Assembly: GCF_000196175.1 (NCBI RefSeq)
Contig: NC_005363.1
Location: 3,100,001 to 3,164,000 of the forward strand
Direction: 5' to 3'
Length of the DNA: 64,000 nucleotides
Source: Bdellovibrio bacteriovorus HD100
Lineage (GTDB): Bacteria; Bdellovibrionota; Bdellovibrionia; Bdellovibrionales; Bdellovibrionaceae
A program made the position numbers and the translations under genes. The notes beneath the pieces are model-generated. The model was not told the DNA's origin. It did no database searches and worked only from the letters and a program-made list of their open reading frames with translations. Below, in pieces: positions 16,276 through 61,790 of the stretch (position 1 is its first letter; each line of letters starts with the position of its first letter).

Positions 16276-18099
16276 ATGAAACTCAAAGCCCTTTTCTGCC
16301 TTGGCCTGCTGGTTATGTTTGGGAGCCCTTCAGTTGAAGCGGCCACCAAACGCATTTGCACCATGACCCTGAACTCCGCCGACGAAAAAGAGGCGCTAAG
16401 GCAGCTTTATGCGTCCGAGGACGTGGTGATCACCGAGCTGGTTCCTGCCGAAGGCAAGAACCCCCGCTGGCTGCAAAACGCCTGCGAATCCGGCATCCAG
16501 TGCGACGTGCTTTTGATTTCCGGCCACTTTGGCGGCGTGTTCTTTGGTGAAGGCAACAGCACCACTTTGGATTTAAAAGAAATCGAACGACTGAGCTGCG
16601 AAAACTCCTGCCCGGGGATCTTAAGCAAACCCAAGGATGTCTTCCTGATGGGTTGCAACACCTTATCCAGCAAAACACCGGACAAACGCTCGATCGAAGA
16701 ATATGTGGAAGTTCTGATCAAAAACGGCTTCCCCCGTGACCTGGCAGAGCGCGTGGCTTTTTCCCGCTATTCGGAATATGGCATGAGCATCAGTCAAATC
16801 TTCTCTTCCGCCTTCAACAACGTCGAACGCCTGCACGGCTTCACCAGCACCGGCCCCCTGGGGAAGGTCGCGGCTCCGCTTTTGAAAAAAGCCCTGCGCG
16901 ACACCAGTGCTCAGACCCTGTTTAGCAAAGGCCCGGACACCAAGAAACTCAATCAGCTTTTCGCCGGCAGCAGCTATCGCATTGTCTCTCCGAAAACCGA
17001 GTCTGATCCAAACTACAAAGCCCTGACTTGCAACGCATATTCCGATAGCATCAACGAAAACCGCGAGGCCATCCATTTCCTGTCCAAAAAACTGCATCTG
17101 AAAAAATACTATGAGCCTCTTTTGGAGGCGACTCAAAACCCGCTGTTCATGTCGCTGTTGCAGGACACCCTGCGCGCGTCTCCGGAGGCAACCCGCAATT
17201 TTGAAAACTTCTTCCTGGAAATCGGCGCGGCCCGCTCTTTGCCGCTGAAGATGAAAATGCAATTCCTGGATCTGCAGGCGCAACTGGGTCTTTTGCCCGC
17301 CACGGTGAAGGCCGAACAGCAGGAACGGCTGATCCGCCAGCGCTTGGGGGATGGTTTGAACTTTATCGTCACCGATCAGTTCTGCGCCATGAAGGATCTG
17401 CTTAAAAGCACCGAACTGAAAGCCGGCTGGTTGCCTTACACCTCCAATGCCTGGCAGTTTATTCCCCGTCTGTCGCAGTGTTTCGGCAGCTATGACATGG
17501 GCATCGAAGGACTGCTGAAAGAGATGATGTACAGTAACGAATCTCCGATTCGTCGCGAGGCCCTGCGTGCCCTCAAAGGCCGTTTGTATTCCCATGACTT
17601 CAGTCAGTTGCTGAAAGCCTCTGCTCAATGGCCCCAGCGCGACCGCCTGGACATGAGCTACAGTATCGGCTTGAAAGCTCCGACGGAAATGCTGCCACCG
17701 ATAGTTGAAACTTGTCTGGCAAAAGCCGCCACCGGTGACAATGCCGAATCCCGCGATGGTTATCGCTGGTACTGCCTCAACCAGTTCGAGCAGCTGATTG
17801 ACAATCCTTTGAAATGTCATCTTGTTGCACGCAGCTTTGAAACACAAAGCGTGACCGGTTTGGACTGGAACTGTTTGACCCGATTTAACCACGAAATCCA
17901 CCTGGGGTCGTGCCTTGAAGCGGCCGATCGCAACGCCGATATTGAGAGTTCCGACAATGTTCGCTGGTACTGCTGGTCCAAATTGTCTGAACAAAAACAA
18001 TTGAGCCGGTCCGAATGTCTTGCTTTGGCCTCTTCAATGAAAATTCAAGGAAATCGCTTCAAGGCCAACTGGAACTGCATGAATCGTATCGCAAATTGA
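16276..18099 (+). CDS. Exported caspase-like (clan CD) candidate with C-terminal cysteine repeats
   Basis: The 607-residue protein has a signal peptide (~1-23). The N-terminal part has a His motif (LLISGHFGGVFFGEG, H84) at the end of one strand and a Cys motif (DVFLMGCNTLSS, C127) at the end of the next, 43 residues apart. This is the arrangement of caspases, CHAT and gingipain-type peptidases. The middle is helical and unrecognised. The last ~140 residues are cysteine repeats with spacings C-x19-C-x13-C-x18-C-x12-C-x19-C-x14-C-x19-C. The same repeat makes up the small protein at 56958-57407. Peptidase activity is inference from motifs. Confidence 0.6.
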   Translation: MKLKALFCLGLLVMFGSPSVEAATKRICTMTLNSADEKEALRQLYASEDVVITELVPAEGKNPRWLQNACESGIQCDVLLISGHFGGVFFGEGNSTTLDLKEIERLSCENSCPGILSKPKDVFLMGCNTLSSKTPDKRSIEEYVEVLIKNGFPRDLAERVAFSRYSEYGMSISQIFSSAFNNVERLHGFTSTGPLGKVAAPLLKKALRDTSAQTLFSKGPDTKKLNQLFAGSSYRIVSPKTESDPNYKALTCNAYSDSINENREAIHFLSKKLHLKKYYEPLLEATQNPLFMSLLQDTLRASPEATRNFENFFLEIGAARSLPLKMKMQFLDLQAQLGLLPATVKAEQQERLIRQRLGDGLNFIVTDQFCAMKDLLKSTELKAGWLPYTSNAWQFIPRLSQCFGSYDMGIEGLLKEMMYSNESPIRREALRALKGRLYSHDFSQLLKASAQWPQRDRLDMSYSIGLKAPTEMLPPIVETCLAKAATGDNAESRDGYRWYCLNQFEQLIDNPLKCHLVARSFETQSVTGLDWNCLTRFNHEIHLGSCLEAADRNADIESSDNVRWYCWSKLSEQKQLSRSECLALASSMKIQGNRFKANWNCMNRIAN

Positions 18100-53844: not shown

Positions 53845-55425
53845 ATGAAGTTCACCTTTTTTTCTTTTCTGCTAGTTCTTTCCACATGCTCCCAGGCCCT
53901 GGCAGCGCGCGCGATTGTGATGATGAAGGATGCTTCCGCTTTCCAGCGCACGCTGAACACCCGCGGCACCTGGTCCCAGTCCCTGCCGGGCAAAATCGAA
54001 AAAAGCCTGCCACAACTTCACACTTTCATCGTCGACACTGAAAACCCCGCCGACATCGAACGCCTGAAGTCCGCTCCGGGTGTGGCCTATGTCGAAAAGG
54101 AATACTTCCACCCGGCTCCCCCACGAGTCAGTGAGGGCGCCGTTCTTGCCAATATCGATGTCGTTACCCCCGGCAGCCCTTGGGGCATTGAAGCGGTGAA
54201 AGCCCCGCAAGCGTGGAGCAAATCCAACAAAGGTGATGGCATCCGCGTTCTGGTTTTGGACAGCGGAATGAATGCGTCTCATCCTTCGCTGGCTCCGAAC
54301 TTTGAACGAGGCCGCAACTTCACGGGCGAAGATGGGATCTATGATTTCTATGATCGCACAGGTCACGGCACCCATGTGGGCGGCACCATTGCAGCTGCTG
54401 AAGATGGCAATGGCTTTTCCGGTGTTGCACCGAAAGCAAAACTGCTGGCCGCCAAAGTCTGTGTGGATTCAGGTTGTTCCAACACCGCTATCGTCGCCGG
54501 GATTTCCTGGGGGATTGATCAAGGTGTGGACGTGATGAATCTTTCATTGGGAAGCTCGGGTGGGTCCCCGGCTGAAAAAGCCGCTTTGTTGCGTGCGGAT
54601 CAGGCCGGGATCACCGTCGTGGCGGCCACGGGGAACTATGGCATCAACGAAGTCTTCTTCCCCGCCTCCGCCCCGTCGGTGATCGCGGTGGGCGCTGTAG
54701 ACAAAAATTTGAATCACGCGGTGTTTTCACAGTACGGCCCGGAAGTGTCTGTGGTGGCTCCGGGGGTTCAGATCGTGTCGACCATTCCCGTGGGCTCGGG
54801 TCGATCCAGCACTGTGACCCTTGCGGAGGCCACGGGACCACAAACACTGAAGGCCTATCACTTTAAGGGCACGGCGGTTCCTTATACTGAGCAAACACGT
54901 GCTGTCGTGGACTGCGGCTTGGGTGATCCGGCGGACTTTGCCGGGAAAGACGTCAAAGACAAACATGTGCTGGTCACTTTAAACCGCGTCACTCCGATCG
55001 AAGACCAGATCCGCAATGCCATGCGCGCCGGCGCCACCAGCGTGATTGTCGCCAACGACAGACCGGGCCTGATAGAAACGCGCTTGTTTGAAAAAGACAA
55101 TGTGTTGTTTGCAGTGGGCTTTTTCGTAGAGCAGGCCGTGGGTGAAAAGATCCGCGCCTTGGTTAAAACATCGCCTGAAACTTTGGTCAGCCTGAAGTCT
55201 GAGCTTACAAGTTACAAAGAAACCTTCGGGACGTCGATGGCCACTCCGCACGTGGCCGGTGTAGCCGCTTTAGTGAAGGCTGCGAACAAAAAACTAAAGC
55301 CCTCAGAGGTGAAGGCTTTATTGATGAAAACCGCCACACCGATGCCGCCCAACGAAGACAATCGTTATGGCTCGGGCCTGGTCAATGCCGAGGCCGCGGT
55401 GGAGGCGGCTCTGGAAATCAAATAA
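53845..55425 (+). CDS. Exported subtilisin-like protease (S8) with PA-domain insert
   Basis: The 526 residues have a signal peptide (~1-20), an I9 inhibitor-like propeptide (~22-90) and the catalytic domain: D139 in VLVLDSGMN, H174 in GHGTHVGGT, N264 in ATGNYG and S464 in FGTSMATPHVAG. Between Asn and Ser, about 120 residues (~330-450) form a protease-associated domain (VDCGLGDPADF, MRAGATSVIVAND) that affects access or specificity. It is likely secreted for protein breakdown. Its last 8 bases overlap the convergent downstream gene. Confidence 0.95.
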   Translation: MKFTFFSFLLVLSTCSQALAARAIVMMKDASAFQRTLNTRGTWSQSLPGKIEKSLPQLHTFIVDTENPADIERLKSAPGVAYVEKEYFHPAPPRVSEGAVLANIDVVTPGSPWGIEAVKAPQAWSKSNKGDGIRVLVLDSGMNASHPSLAPNFERGRNFTGEDGIYDFYDRTGHGTHVGGTIAAAEDGNGFSGVAPKAKLLAAKVCVDSGCSNTAIVAGISWGIDQGVDVMNLSLGSSGGSPAEKAALLRADQAGITVVAATGNYGINEVFFPASAPSVIAVGAVDKNLNHAVFSQYGPEVSVVAPGVQIVSTIPVGSGRSSTVTLAEATGPQTLKAYHFKGTAVPYTEQTRAVVDCGLGDPADFAGKDVKDKHVLVTLNRVTPIEDQIRNAMRAGATSVIVANDRPGLIETRLFEKDNVLFAVGFFVEQAVGEKIRALVKTSPETLVSLKSELTSYKETFGTSMATPHVAGVAALVKAANKKLKPSEVKALLMKTATPMPPNEDNRYGSGLVNAEAAVEAALEIK

Positions 55426-56728
55426 CTCTTTTCACAGCCATTTTAACCAGCGACTTGTCTGTCATGCGCTTTTTCACTGCGCGCAGCAGACTGTCCAGAT
55501 TCACCTGAACATTGTCATTAGTGTCGACACAGACACCGCCCACCCATGTCTGATCATTCACAACATGAATGTCCTGATGGCTGGCCGCAGTCACATCGAC
55601 TTTGTCACCGTCAACTTTGATTTCAGCCTGAACTGATTCGCTGGCACCCTCGCCGAATTCCGATTCATCCCAGTCTACTTTGATCACGTGGCTGTTGCTG
55701 ACCTTGATCAGGCACAGGCCTGTTTTGCGGTTGATGATGCTGATATCCCCACTGCCAGAGGACTTTTTATCGCTGAACAGGCTGTCCAAAGCACCGGCAT
55801 ACACGTCGGACGAATTCAGTGATGCCAGGACCAGGCCCTTCAGATCGCCGGTCTCCTGCTGAATTTGCTCTTGCGGCATCAGTTCCTGAATCCAGGATTT
55901 AAACTGCGAATCCGGCAGTTTCTGCAGCTTCTGAATCAAAGTTTTTGAATGGCCGTGATAAAGCGCTGCCAACTGCACCCGGAAATCAGAAATCGGGTTA
56001 AAGAAGCTCCAGTTTTCCAGCACCTTCATGCCCATCTTGTCTGTCTGGCTGCCGAAGTGAGCAAAGATTTTCATAATCGCCCGTGGAGTGCTGGCCTGGG
56101 ACTGTGTCAGCAGCACGTCACCGGAATTCCAAAGCTTCAGCAGATCCTTGGCCTGAATTTCACGGTCTTCCGGCAGATTGATTCTCAGGGTTTGCCCGTC
56201 CAGGGCCAGAACGCCTTCACTGCCCTCAACATTCAGAGCGCTGATTTCCACGCGGTTGAAGTTGAACAGCATGCCGTTCTTTTTTCCGAAATTGCGGGCA
56301 TGGAAATAAGCCACGAATTGCAAAGCCTCGTGAGTGTTTCGGCGCAGAAGCTTTTCCGCTTTGCGTTTTCCCACCAGGAAGTAAGAATCTTTGACTATGC
56401 GGAAAGTTTTTCCCGAGCCATCAAGGCGGGTGCCCACCATTTCGATGGCCGGCAGCTGATCCTGCGGGAAGTACTTCGTGCGGAAGGACGCCAGATCTTC
56501 CGCCGAAGTCGGCAACTGATAACTTTGGCTGAGACGCTGGAAATAGTCCTTGAAAGTCTTCTCTGCCGACGGGGCCAGGGAAGGAATCAAGGTGGAGTTC
56601 AGGCACGACAGCATCTGCTGCTCATCGGGTAAAATGCAGGAGTCCTTATCCGCAGCCGCCGCCACAGAACCTGACGTCATCACAAAACCCGCCACCAATA
56701 GTTTTATAAGACCTGACTTTGCGCCCAT
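55418..56728 (-). CDS. Exported protein of unknown function
   Basis: The 436 residues have a signal peptide (~1-25, ending VAAAAD) and a mature part without a recognised fold. A helical region is rich in leucine (LLKLWNSGDVLLTQSQAS). Near the C-terminus is a beta-rich part (GDISIINRKTGLCLIKVSN, HVIKVDWDESEFG) and VGGVCVDTN. Few cysteines are present (about 4). It ends inside the 3' end of the convergent subtilisin gene. Its promoter region has a 10-bp perfect inverted repeat. Confidence 0.6.
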   Translation of the reverse strand: MGAKSGLIKLLVAGFVMTSGSVAAAADKDSCILPDEQQMLSCLNSTLIPSLAPSAEKTFKDYFQRLSQSYQLPTSAEDLASFRTKYFPQDQLPAIEMVGTRLDGSGKTFRIVKDSYFLVGKRKAEKLLRRNTHEALQFVAYFHARNFGKKNGMLFNFNRVEISALNVEGSEGVLALDGQTLRINLPEDREIQAKDLLKLWNSGDVLLTQSQASTPRAIMKIFAHFGSQTDKMGMKVLENWSFFNPISDFRVQLAALYHGHSKTLIQKLQKLPDSQFKSWIQELMPQEQIQQETGDLKGLVLASLNSSDVYAGALDSLFSDKKSSGSGDISIINRKTGLCLIKVSNSHVIKVDWDESEFGEGASESVQAEIKVDGDKVDVTAASHQDIHVVNDQTWVGGVCVDTNDNVQVNLDSLLRAVKKRMTDKSLVKMAVKRVI

Positions 56729-56957: not shown

Positions 56958-57407
56958 ATGATGAAGCTCTTGTTGGTTGTAGCTGCGATGATTGGATTGG
57001 GTGCTTTCCGTGCGGAAGCCACCCCGCTTTGCCATGTGGCGAAGTCCACCAAACTTGCCATGGATCAGCGCGATGACCTGCGCTTGAAATGTCTGAAACA
57101 AAAAAAGAACCAGATCAAAGTTTCCCAGTGCCTGGGTGTGGCTGCCTCCATGGAATATTCCACCAATGCGGAAGAAGCCCGCCTGGTGTGCCTGTATGAT
57201 CTGCGCCAACAACCCAACCTTAAAGAATGCCACTCGATCACCAAGTTGATGGAGTTCCCGGACTCGGGGGATGAAGCCCGTTGGGAGTGCCTGCGCAAGT
57301 TCAATCGCACCATCACCAAAAAGCAATGCCAGAAACTGGCTCAATCCATGAGTTATCCGGCCAACGAACAGCGTGCACAAATTTACTGCGAGCAAGAACT
57401 GCAGTAG
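56958..57407 (+). CDS. Small exported cysteine-repeat protein
   Basis: ATG 56958 with ggag seven bases upstream gives 149 residues; a longer upstream frame lacks a Shine-Dalgarno. It has a signal peptide (ending RAEATP). The mature protein is a repeat: one half unit, then three full units of exactly 33 residues with spacing C-x12-C-x19-C, sharing a Met/Ala-Glu-Ala signature before the third Cys (MEYSTNAEEAR, MEFPDSGDEAR, MSYPANEQRAQ). The same spacing and signature form the tail of the caspase-like protein at 16.3 kb. Function unknown, no family recognised. Confidence 0.75.
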   Translation: MMKLLLVVAAMIGLGAFRAEATPLCHVAKSTKLAMDQRDDLRLKCLKQKKNQIKVSQCLGVAASMEYSTNAEEARLVCLYDLRQQPNLKECHSITKLMEFPDSGDEARWECLRKFNRTITKKQCQKLAQSMSYPANEQRAQIYCEQELQ

Positions 57408-57467: not shown

Positions 57468-58268
57468 GTGGTAAAGACGTTGCTGGGATCTCTTGTTTCA
57501 ATCTGTTTTATTCTGACCGCTGGCTGCAGCGGCAGTTCCAGCACGGAATCCAGCTTTCCGCACTCAAACTCCCGAACGTATTTCAAAAGCACGGCAAAGA
57601 TCTCGATGGAAGTTTATTATGAAACGGGGTCTGAACCCTTCACGGGAACCACCCTCAGTGGAATGAACTACTGGCAGATTCTGGAAGACAATCTGACGGC
57701 GATCTTCCAGTATCGCAGTGCTGCTCCGACCATTGCCGTTCCAAAAACTCTGGCCGAAATGACGGCGATCCCGGCTCAAGGCAAGACAGAGTGGACTGGC
57801 ATCGATATCGTCAATCTGCACAAGCAGTATCACAGTCAGCTTCCCACCCGTGCAGATTCCCGTTTCTATCTTTATTTCCTGGACGGCAACTACAGCACCG
57901 GATCCGGCCCTGAAACCGGAGTCATAGGCGTCAGCCTTGGCGGGACCCCGATCATTGCGATCTTTAAAGATGTCGTGCGAAGCTCGGGGGCAAATCCCAA
58001 CGGCGTGGTTCCCAAATACGTGGAGCAAAGCACGCTGGTGCACGAAATGGGGCACGCCCTGGGATTTGTGAACAACGGCGTTCCGATGGTCACAGTTCAT
58101 CAGGACACGGCTCATGGAGCTCATACAACCAATTCGGATTGTGTGATGTATTGGATGAACGAAGGCGCTTCGGATCTATCGAACTTTCTTCAGAACTACA
58201 TCAACTCGGGCGACACAGTGATGTGGGGTCCTGAAGTTCTTCAAGACGCCCAAGCCTATAGTGAATAA
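57468..58268 (+). CDS. Lipoprotein zinc metalloprotease (metzincin-like)
   Basis: The GTG start gives 266 residues with a lipobox (LTAGC, Cys 20). A zinc-protease motif HEMGHALGF (H192, E193, H196) is followed by a Met-turn-like CVMYWM (~225-230), as in metzincins. The usual third His ten residues after the first is Asn here (N202), but a cluster HQDTAHGAH (~211-219) could supply it. The enzyme would be on the cell envelope. The fold is beta-rich before the site (RFYLYFLDG, VIGVSLGG). Substrate unknown. Confidence 0.75.
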   Translation: MVKTLLGSLVSICFILTAGCSGSSSTESSFPHSNSRTYFKSTAKISMEVYYETGSEPFTGTTLSGMNYWQILEDNLTAIFQYRSAAPTIAVPKTLAEMTAIPAQGKTEWTGIDIVNLHKQYHSQLPTRADSRFYLYFLDGNYSTGSGPETGVIGVSLGGTPIIAIFKDVVRSSGANPNGVVPKYVEQSTLVHEMGHALGFVNNGVPMVTVHQDTAHGAHTTNSDCVMYWMNEGASDLSNFLQNYINSGDTVMWGPEVLQDAQAYSE

Positions 58269-59149: not shown

Positions 59150-60334
59150 CTATTTTCTTTTATCTTCCATCGCCACCATGCGGTCGCGGCGGGCCAGGGT
59201 GATCAAAGCGACATTGTATTTGTCCTTTGGAACCGCGATCACCGTCTTAGCCGGGATCGGGTGGCCTTTGCGGGCCTTGAAGGTCAGGTGGGGATTGAAG
59301 ACCTGGGCCTTGCGATCATCACCATCAAACCAGGCCACAATCTCTTTGTACTTCACAGACACCGGCAGCTTCAGATCCTGGGAATCCAGCGGCTTGGACC
59401 ACACCACAGAACCGAAATACTTGCCCGCGTTCTTTTCCACTTCCAATGCCGCCAGGAAGCTTGCATAGAAGTTGCGGGACGCAAAACCAAAGGTCTTGCT
59501 GGATTTCACATCCGTCACCAACTGCCCCAGCTCACGGGTGCCGTACTTTTCAGTCAGCTTGCGCACACCGGTTGGACCGTGATTGTAACCTGTCACCGCC
59601 AGCGGCCAGGAGTTCAGCATGGAATAGTTCTGACGAAGAAGTTTCGCCGCCAGTTTTGTTGCTTCCATCGGATGATTGCGGTTGTCCACCGCAGTTGAAA
59701 TCATCTTATAAGGACGAGCCGTGTAAGGCATGATCTGCCACAGACCACTGGCCCCCACTTTGGAGCGCGCCATGATGTTGAAAGAACTTTCAACAAACGC
59801 CAGACGCGTCAGTTCCACCGGAACTTTGGCATCACGGAAGATTTTTTCCATATCCTCGATATAACGACCGGAATAGAAGATCGCCTCCTGCATGCGGTCC
59901 TTTTGACCCAGCTGGAAACGCAGGCGCTCCGCCGCTTCCGGGGAATTCAGCTTCAGCGCAATTTCCTTTTTAACTTCATCAACGCGCTTTTGCTTCGCAC
60001 GCTCTGTTGTCAGGCCCGTCAGATCAACGATCTCGTAAACCTTCTCAACGTTTTCAGAATCGTGAATCACACCCTGGTTGGTGGAATATTTAGTATAGAT
60101 ATCAATCCAGAACTGAACTTGCTTGTCCATGCCTTTGGGAATGGAGAATGCGGTCTCATGGTAACCCAGTGACGCGGTTTGATCGGAAAAGACCGGAGCA
60201 CGCCAAGGACGGCTTTCTTCCGGGCTGCGACCCAAAACCTGCGGCACCACCTGCTCAGCAATATTTCCCTGTGCCATTGCCACAGGAGCGCCTAGCATAA
60301 AAACGTATAGAACTGAGACACTAAGTTTCATCAT
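59150..60334 (-). CDS. Exported lytic transglycosylase (SLT/MltD-like)
   Basis: From ATG 60334 (aggtgg upstream) the protein has 394 residues with a signal peptide (ending VAMAQ). The SLT domain (~165-310) has the catalytic Glu182 in AFVESSFN, ASGLWQIMPYTA and AVTGYNHGPTGV with the active-site Tyr. It cleaves the glycan strand between MurNAc and GlcNAc, leaving 1,6-anhydroMurNAc. A small C-terminal domain (~330-394) may bind peptidoglycan, but no LysM motif is obvious. It lies downstream of dacB on the same strand. Confidence 0.9.
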   Translation of the reverse strand: MMKLSVSVLYVFMLGAPVAMAQGNIAEQVVPQVLGRSPEESRPWRAPVFSDQTASLGYHETAFSIPKGMDKQVQFWIDIYTKYSTNQGVIHDSENVEKVYEIVDLTGLTTERAKQKRVDEVKKEIALKLNSPEAAERLRFQLGQKDRMQEAIFYSGRYIEDMEKIFRDAKVPVELTRLAFVESSFNIMARSKVGASGLWQIMPYTARPYKMISTAVDNRNHPMEATKLAAKLLRQNYSMLNSWPLAVTGYNHGPTGVRKLTEKYGTRELGQLVTDVKSSKTFGFASRNFYASFLAALEVEKNAGKYFGSVVWSKPLDSQDLKLPVSVKYKEIVAWFDGDDRKAQVFNPHLTFKARKGHPIPAKTVIAVPKDKYNVALITLARRDRMVAMEDKRK

Positions 60335-60365
60335 GGGAGGTCCACCTTCCACCTTTTCAATCGGC

Positions 60366-61790
60366 TTATTTTACAAGATAGATAAGTAAATTATCAAAAA
60401 ACGCGCGAATCTTCGTCTCATCCGTGGAACCGTTGTAAACGAAAGAGAAAGTCACAACTCGCCCGTCTTCCAAACCCGCATAACCCGCTAATGAGACCAC
60501 GCCTGTCAGGAATCCCGTTTTCGCACGCACCCAGCGTTCTGCCGGAGAATTCTTCATGCGTTTTTTAAGCGTGCCATCAACCCCGGCGATCGGCAAGGAG
60601 GTCAGGAACTCGGGCTGGACCCGGAAATCGTTGCGTAAATGCTGCAGGACCTTCCACATCGCGAAAGAGGACAGCTTGTTCTGGCGCGACAAACCTGAAG
60701 GAGACTGCAGATTGTATTGCTCTGCCGGCACACCCAGACTTTGCATGTGCTCATTGATAACAAGCACGCCGTCGGCCAGCGTCGCCCCTTTTGTTTTTTT
60801 CACCGCCCCCAAATTCTTGGTCAGCATCTCGGCAACATAGTTGTTTGAAAACTTGTTCATGTCGGCAACCATCTGCTCAATCGGTTTGCTTTCCGATTCA
60901 GCCACCAGTTCGGCCTTCTCTGGTGTGACACCGTTCCTGATCGTACCGGTGAGTTGAATTCCTCTTTGCGCCAGGAAAGCTTTCAAATTGTATCCTGCCC
61001 AAAGGTCCGGCTGCGTGATGTTCTTAAAGACCACCACTTCCTTCAAACCCTGACCAATGCTGCCACCCACGTGAATCACATCACCTGGGAATTTCTTGTC
61101 TTCATCGCGGTCCGCCAGCAGATTGTTCGCGGAACCGCTCACCGTCTTGGCCTTGTTCACCAGGCGGATATAGTCATTTTCCGGATCAATCGTCACTTCA
61201 GCACCGTTACCGGCCCCGTTGGCACGCACAAAGATATTCACCGAATTCCAGTTGAAACTCATCGCCCCGACCGGCGCATCGTAAGCGCGATCCACACGCT
61301 CTTTCTGACGGCTCAAGTCGTAACGGACTCTGTCAAACAGAGAGTCGTCCACGACAATATCGCCTTCAATCTTTTTGATTTTGGTACGGGTAAAGGCATT
61401 CACCAAATACCACATATTTTCAGAGACAAAAGAAGGATCCCCGCCGCCTTTAAGATACAAAGTCCCCTTCAAGGTCCCGCTTTTAAGATCCCCGCTGGTC
61501 AAAAGCTGAGTTTTGAATTTAGTCCCCGGAGGAAATGAAGCCAAAACCGCGGAAGCCGTCGCAATTTTCGAAATGGACGCCGGGACCATCATCTTGTTCC
61601 CATTCACATCCAAAAGAGTCTTCAGCTCTTCCCCTTCACCGATGGTCGCATAAATACCCAAATCTTTGGTGTTCACGCCGTACTTCTTAGCCAGCCCCTC
61701 AAACTCTTTGGAAATATCCTTAAACTTATCATCCGCGTGAACATTGAAAGAAATCAGCGCAACGACCAAAGAAATCAATAAAGCTTTCAC
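60366..61790 (-). CDS. dacB: D-alanyl-D-alanine carboxypeptidase/endopeptidase DacB (PBP4, S13 family)
   Basis: The 474 residues have a signal peptide (ending VHADD) and the penicilloyl serine motifs S72-I-S-K75, SNNYVAEML (SxN) and RAKTGFLTG (KTG). The insert domain of class C PBPs is present (~90-270). PBP4 proteins trim D-Ala or cut cross-links. From memory, Bdellovibrio has three DacB-type enzymes, two of them used to round up prey cells, and this may be the third (Bd3244), but I cannot verify that from sequence. Confidence 0.94.
   Translation of the reverse strand: MKALLISLVVALISFNVHADDKFKDISKEFEGLAKKYGVNTKDLGIYATIGEGEELKTLLDVNGNKMMVPASISKIATASAVLASFPPGTKFKTQLLTSGDLKSGTLKGTLYLKGGGDPSFVSENMWYLVNAFTRTKIKKIEGDIVVDDSLFDRVRYDLSRQKERVDRAYDAPVGAMSFNWNSVNIFVRANGAGNGAEVTIDPENDYIRLVNKAKTVSGSANNLLADRDEDKKFPGDVIHVGGSIGQGLKEVVVFKNITQPDLWAGYNLKAFLAQRGIQLTGTIRNGVTPEKAELVAESESKPIEQMVADMNKFSNNYVAEMLTKNLGAVKKTKGATLADGVLVINEHMQSLGVPAEQYNLQSPSGLSRQNKLSSFAMWKVLQHLRNDFRVQPEFLTSLPIAGVDGTLKKRMKNSPAERWVRAKTGFLTGVVSLAGYAGLEDGRVVTFSFVYNGSTDETKIRAFFDNLLIYLVK

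Follow-up and report, generated by a model that had tools for sequence, protein, structure and literature searches.

Sel1-like proteins and the Helicobacter cysteine-rich proteins (Hcp) are exported and consist of disulfide-stapled helical-hairpin repeats with two cysteines per unit, and the cysteines of Sel1-type repeats are closely spaced. Another kind of exported repeat protein operates in Bdellovibrio bacteriovorus itself, where the ankyrin-repeat protein Bd3460 serves as a self-protection protein for the endopeptidases Bd3459 and Bd0816 (PMC4686830).

In this work, we analysed a stretch of 64,000 nucleotides of the B. bacteriovorus HD100 genome (assembly GCF_000196175.1, contig NC_005363.1, positions 3,100,001 to 3,164,000 of the forward strand), referred to as the window, which encodes a 33-residue cysteine repeat in two forms, namely a small stand-alone protein and the C-terminal tail of a larger, caspase-like protein. 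The repeat resembles the Sel1-like and Hcp proteins in its predicted export, helical hairpins and two cysteines per unit, with putative disulfides, but it differs from them in its unit of 33 residues with the spacing C-x19-C and in its Pfam result, since even at E values as high as 1 the Sel1 profile hit neither the window proteins nor any of 21 members of the family. Like Bd3460, the small protein is a small repeat protein of the same bacterium, exported in this case by prediction, and Bd3460 illustrates in what way a scaffold of this kind might act (PMC4686830), whereas Bd3460 has ankyrin repeats, belongs to another sequence family and has a known partner.

A small protein composed of four repeat units

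The small gene has the following features.

56958..57407, + strand: small gene, coding for the 149-aa stand-alone repeat protein (open reading frame and translation)
56958..57020, + strand: predicted signal peptide MMKLLLVVAAMIGLGAFRAEA (sequence reading)
57030..57128, + strand: repeat unit 1, Cys25 and Cys45 (cysteine spacing)
57129..57227, + strand: repeat unit 2, Cys58 and Cys78 (cysteine spacing; helices predicted)
57228..57326, + strand: repeat unit 3, Cys91 and Cys111 (cysteine spacing; helices predicted)
57327..57404, + strand: repeat unit 4, Cys124 and Cys144 (cysteine spacing; helices predicted)

By eye, a GGAG is read directly 5′ of the ATG. The first-pass annotation had described a protein made only of the repeat with exact spacing, and this is true after the signal peptide: the mature protein is four 33-residue units and nothing else, and its eight cysteines are separated by gaps of exactly 19, 12, 19, 12, 19, 12 and 19 residues. 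When the mature sequence was shuffled 20,000 times, three exact C-x19-C-x12-C matches never arose. By counting genes from Bd3238, a serine protease (PMC7137782), and Bd3244, which is dacB (PMC3276566), the small gene would correspond to Bd3240, and a search of the literature did not find a published account of it.

The caspase-like protein and its repeat tail

The second form of the repeat lies about 39 kb away.

16276..18099, + strand: gene of the secreted caspase-like protein, 607 aa, with C-terminal repeat tail
16525..16527, + strand: His84, candidate catalytic histidine of the SGH(F/Y) motif (invariant in 12/12, alignment A4)
16654..16656, + strand: Cys127 in the GCNT motif, candidate catalytic cysteine (invariant in 12/12, alignment A4)
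17713..17814, + strand: tail repeat unit 1, Cys480 and Cys500
17815..17910, + strand: tail repeat unit 2, Cys514 and Cys533
17911..18015, + strand: tail repeat unit 3, Cys546 and Cys566
18016..18096, + strand: tail repeat unit 4, Cys581 and Cys601

Alignment A4 comprises 12 diverse members of the caspase-like N-terminal domain family, all of which carry the conserved His/Cys dyad of a clan CD peptidase. As in the clan CD cysteine peptidases, the two invariant residues stand in SGH and GC contexts, 43 residues apart, but the motif around the histidine is GH-F/Y and not HG. The top PDB sequence matches of the large protein are caspases at non-significant values (caspase-3 at E 0.41, with the histidine one column off), and its comparison with Pfam and the PDB sequences gave no significant match to any clan CD or caspase family. 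"Caspase-like" is used here as a reasonable working name and does not imply proven membership.

The caspase-like N-terminal domain (window 16276-17000) is without a Pfam match, is present in two to four copies in some genomes, and often carries long tails other than the cysteine repeat. It was detected in 94 of 369 Bdellovibrionota genomes, belonging to 47 genera, and because it mostly occurs without the cysteine tail across the phylum, the tail is dispensable for the domain. Those homologues in other genera of the same family whose whole sequence was read also end without the cysteine tail, save two in genus g3.

Common ancestry of the two forms

The eight tail cysteines are spaced by 19, 13, 18, 12, 19, 14 and 19 residues, so that the spacing earlier called the same as that of the small protein is a related but not an identical pattern. 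Likewise, the aromatic residue two positions before the second cysteine of the unit is a property of all four tail units (RWYC, DWNC, RWYC and NWNC), but in the small protein a single unit has it (RWEC) and the other three do not (RLKC, RLVC and QIYC), and the "seven or so units" count as eight over both proteins, four in each.

Single-sequence searches linking the two proteins were borderline (E 0.0066 and 3.8e-4); the profile of the small family matched the tail at E 5.7e-8 in its own genome and 1.5e-11 in a second one (G020), and the profile-profile comparison of the small family with the tail reached 97% and E 6e-11 over 124 columns. Two unrelated cysteine-rich sequences resembling each other by chance could have yielded a single-sequence match as weak as E 0.0066, but such a coincidence is refuted by the profile-profile statistics, by the recovery of the family across three bacterial families with a profile of both forms, and by the agreement of the predicted helix and cysteine positions between the small protein and the tail, and we assign it a practically negligible probability. 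Therefore, as judged from the sequence comparisons, the repeat is genuine and both proteins have it from a common ancestor, which bears out the original proposal of a repeat common to two distant genes.

Predicted fold and comparison with known families

AlphaFold modelling of the small protein together with eight close sequences gave a pLDDT of 95.1 and a pTM of 0.85, with seven helices arranged in hairpins (residues 13-26, 33-41, 46-58, 66-74, 79-92, 99-107 and 112-125 of the mature protein), and the small protein is confidently predicted to fold into helical hairpins that make up an alpha-solenoid. For the caspase tail, modelled apart from the rest of its protein and without an alignment, eight helices were obtained, with the cysteines at matching places (pLDDT 71). 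Since a Foldseek search against the PDB returned nothing below E 0.14, we claim no named fold. In VIA-align, designed helical repeats ranked top with a Z of about 10 and TPR-like chains reached about 7, values in the ordinary range for helical repeats. The model is similar to TPR and other alpha-solenoid repeats in its stacked antiparallel hairpins of about 33-34 residues, but differs from them in its two cysteines per unit, in the Foldseek result, and in lacking the TPR signature, as the TPR profile of Pfam did not match the repeat proteins. Sequence conservation is highest in the turn between helices A and B and at the start of helix B, which may mark a working face, or may merely reflect the capping of the hairpin.

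The repeat matched no family at cut-off in Pfam, NCBIfam or PHROGs and no PDB sequence, and its description as undescribed thus holds within the libraries searched. The known families once named as possible identities, Sel1 and CVNH, were both without a match, and Sel1, TPR, ankyrin and CVNH were all rejected for want of a Pfam match at cut-off, the ankyrin search giving none for the repeat proteins; the beta-rich CVNH fold is moreover ruled out by the all-helical model with its pLDDT of 95. Isolated weak matches in individual members, among them DUF7645 and DUF4476, fell well short of the cut-offs and were not common to the family. We conclude that the repeat family is genuine and undescribed, a probable variant of the disulfide-stapled helical repeats.

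Cysteine pairing

All eight cysteines are kept in 47 of 48 full-length matches. Where cysteines are lost they disappear pairwise within a unit, as in three units of two proteins (unit 3 of the G028 protein, where Phe and Tyr replace them, and units 1 and 3 of the G309 protein). The first and last cysteines are invariant in alignment A1, and shortened first units (C-x10-C) retain both of theirs. Because of these paired losses, the retained end cysteines and the intact C-x10-C units, we infer one disulfide per unit, linking its first and second cysteines (C-x19-C). The helix positions alone would be compatible with C-x12-C pairing across units too; that arrangement was judged less likely from the paired losses and the retained end cysteines, as it would leave the end and several other cysteines partnerless.

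Distribution and fusions of the repeat

The small gene is present in all 24 genomes of the genus, and four further genera of its family (g2, g3, g6 and g10) have it too. The tailed caspase is missing from eight of these 24 genomes, although all eight keep the small gene, and caspase tails were likewise not found in g2, g6 and g10. A wider profile built on both forms (A5) and run on 369 genomes of the phylum matched 61 of them, in 13 genera and three families, and so the repeat is not confined to the two window proteins, the outcome that had been named as fatal to the idea. The number of units per protein ranges from two (L104, L105) to about six (L099, L100). This sensitive profile search covered Bdellovibrionota only; plasmid and viral collections gave no repeat match, and conserved-peptide patterns run over 84,980 species matched Bdellovibrio only, with a strictness that leaves distant relatives beyond the phylum possible.

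A caspase-like domain near the N-terminus is combined with the repeat at the C-terminus in 25 distinct open reading frames, and an open reading frame cut by a contig end in G081 is very likely the 26th such fusion; the repeat is always C-terminal in these proteins. The first-pass annotation had suggested checking for paired occurrence with caspase-like domains, and these proteins show it. In the repeat tree, which has few columns and several long branches and is unsure in its details, all caspase tails form one clade with a support of 100, apart from and deeply diverged from the clade of the stand-alone forms, and a single caspase fusion event, whose product was afterwards inherited or transferred, would therefore suffice. 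The tails of two g3 genomes (L155 and L156, family f1) nest among those of family f12, which suggests that the whole caspase-plus-tail gene was transferred horizontally.

A papain-type protease in G107 (L149:552-2180) carries four C-terminal cysteine-repeat units after its Peptidase_C1 domain (Pfam E 2e-16). As the matches of related papain-type proteins in the family of G107 are confined to the N-terminal part, this tail would have been gained or kept in one lineage. A third architecture is found in a 368-aa protein of G188 (L150:1423-2526), in which divergent cysteine-repeat units are followed by a further C-terminal segment. The module had been called mobile, which applies in a restricted sense: the caspase tails are one clade and so count as one fusion, and one separate papain-type fusion was found. 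The homology, distribution and domain order of the repeat are direct results of the computation.

Genomic neighbourhood of the small gene

Two cell-wall enzyme genes are the conserved neighbours of the small gene.

59150..60352, − strand: SLT-type lytic transglycosylase (Pfam PF01464, E 1.9e-22; synteny)
60366..61790, − strand: S13 D,D-carboxypeptidase/endopeptidase, taken as Bd3244 dacB (Pfam PF02113, E 3.2e-90)

The small gene occupies one syntenic site in all 24 genus genomes, near cell-wall enzyme genes, and its place beside the SLT, S13 and LspA genes is kept in Bdellovibrio and four other genera, even where identity falls to 22-25%. To locate this site in other genera, and for that purpose only, a weak probe consisting of the N-terminal 70 residues of the SLT protein was used. 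In related genera without the small gene (G034, G195, G189 and G036), the SLT gene directly adjoins an M14 carboxypeptidase gene; because the site is empty in several genera that keep SLT and S13, the small gene is not required wherever these enzymes occur.

The gene at 55418-56728 (− strand) encodes an uncharacterised secreted protein and is absent beside the small gene in all relatives compared, and that at 57468-58268 (+ strand) encodes a weakly metalloprotease-like protein (NF038122, E 5e-4) kept there only in G023 among those relatives. Neither is conserved beside the small gene, and both were rejected as functional partners. Positions 62956-64002 of the window encode another exported protein, whose papain-family match is borderline and narrowly misses the Pfam cut-off (E 5e-4).

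Proposed role and alternatives

Based on these findings, we propose, with somewhat more confidence than doubt, that the repeat is a disulfide-stapled alpha-solenoid binding scaffold, which serves secreted cysteine proteases as a docking tail and acts as an adaptor in its free form. Each unit would begin with a short helix A and pass through a tight turn into a longer helix B, with one disulfide joining the first cysteine, in helix A, to the second, in helix B, and the units would stack into a rigid rod fit for the oxidising periplasm, the prey periplasm or the outside. Such a rod could serve as a binding scaffold: at the C-terminus of a caspase-like or papain-type protease it would most likely dock the enzyme to a substrate or partner, and the free small protein would most likely serve another protein as an adaptor, either in the periplasm or after secretion. 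The signal-like N-termini, the cysteine pairs, the variable unit number and the occurrence of both stand-alone and protease-fused forms fit the earlier suggestion of an extracellular module. Although the solenoid shape by itself does not demonstrate binding, we infer export and a binding role for the repeat proteins, and secreted enzymes probably employ the repeat as a binding module. A bolder reading, which we hold only tentatively and think rather unlikely as a whole, is that this new stapled alpha-solenoid family docks the secreted cysteine proteases of predatory bacteria and their relatives through its tails, and that its free counterpart, retained by all Bdellovibrio species sampled, guides secreted enzymes or keeps them in check during predation.

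The most interesting rival is that the small protein regulates the neighbouring SLT and S13 enzymes, as an inhibitor or in an immunity-like manner, by analogy with the action of Bd3460 on its endopeptidases. The site shared with SLT, S13 and LspA over five genera would agree with this, and B. bacteriovorus is known to export repeat proteins that inhibit S13 enzymes (PMC4686830), but the genes are convergent and form no single operon, Bd3244 is described as a constitutive housekeeping enzyme for which an immunity protein would be unneeded (PMC3276566), and the genera with an empty site argue against a required partnership; we consider such regulation unlikely. Still less probable is that the small protein would compete with the caspase-like protein or share its ligand, as suggested in the first pass, or would bind the caspase-like protein itself. 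Such a role could draw on the common descent of the module but finds no support in its distribution: because the small gene is present in all 24 genus genomes, including the eight without the tail, the small protein is no dedicated partner of the caspase-like protein, and the same is seen in the three other genera with the small gene and no detected tail, the two forms being deeply diverged and their genes far apart. A comparably slight chance is given to the cysteines serving redox or metal chemistry instead of structure. Eight near-invariant cysteines in a small, predicted-exported protein would be in keeping with such chemistry, but they vanish pairwise while the remainder of the unit is still recognisable, a CxxC or heme motif is lacking, and the confident model shows an ordinary solenoid.

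The undescribed repeat makes an unannotated gene, found in all Bdellovibrio genomes sampled, testable, and ties it to a caspase-like family widespread in Bdellovibrionota. Should secreted proteases or cell-wall enzymes be guided by the scaffold, this would offer a handle on how digestive enzymes are aimed or restrained in these bacteria. The unit is short, regular and easily modelled, and hence of some interest for the design of stable exported scaffolds.
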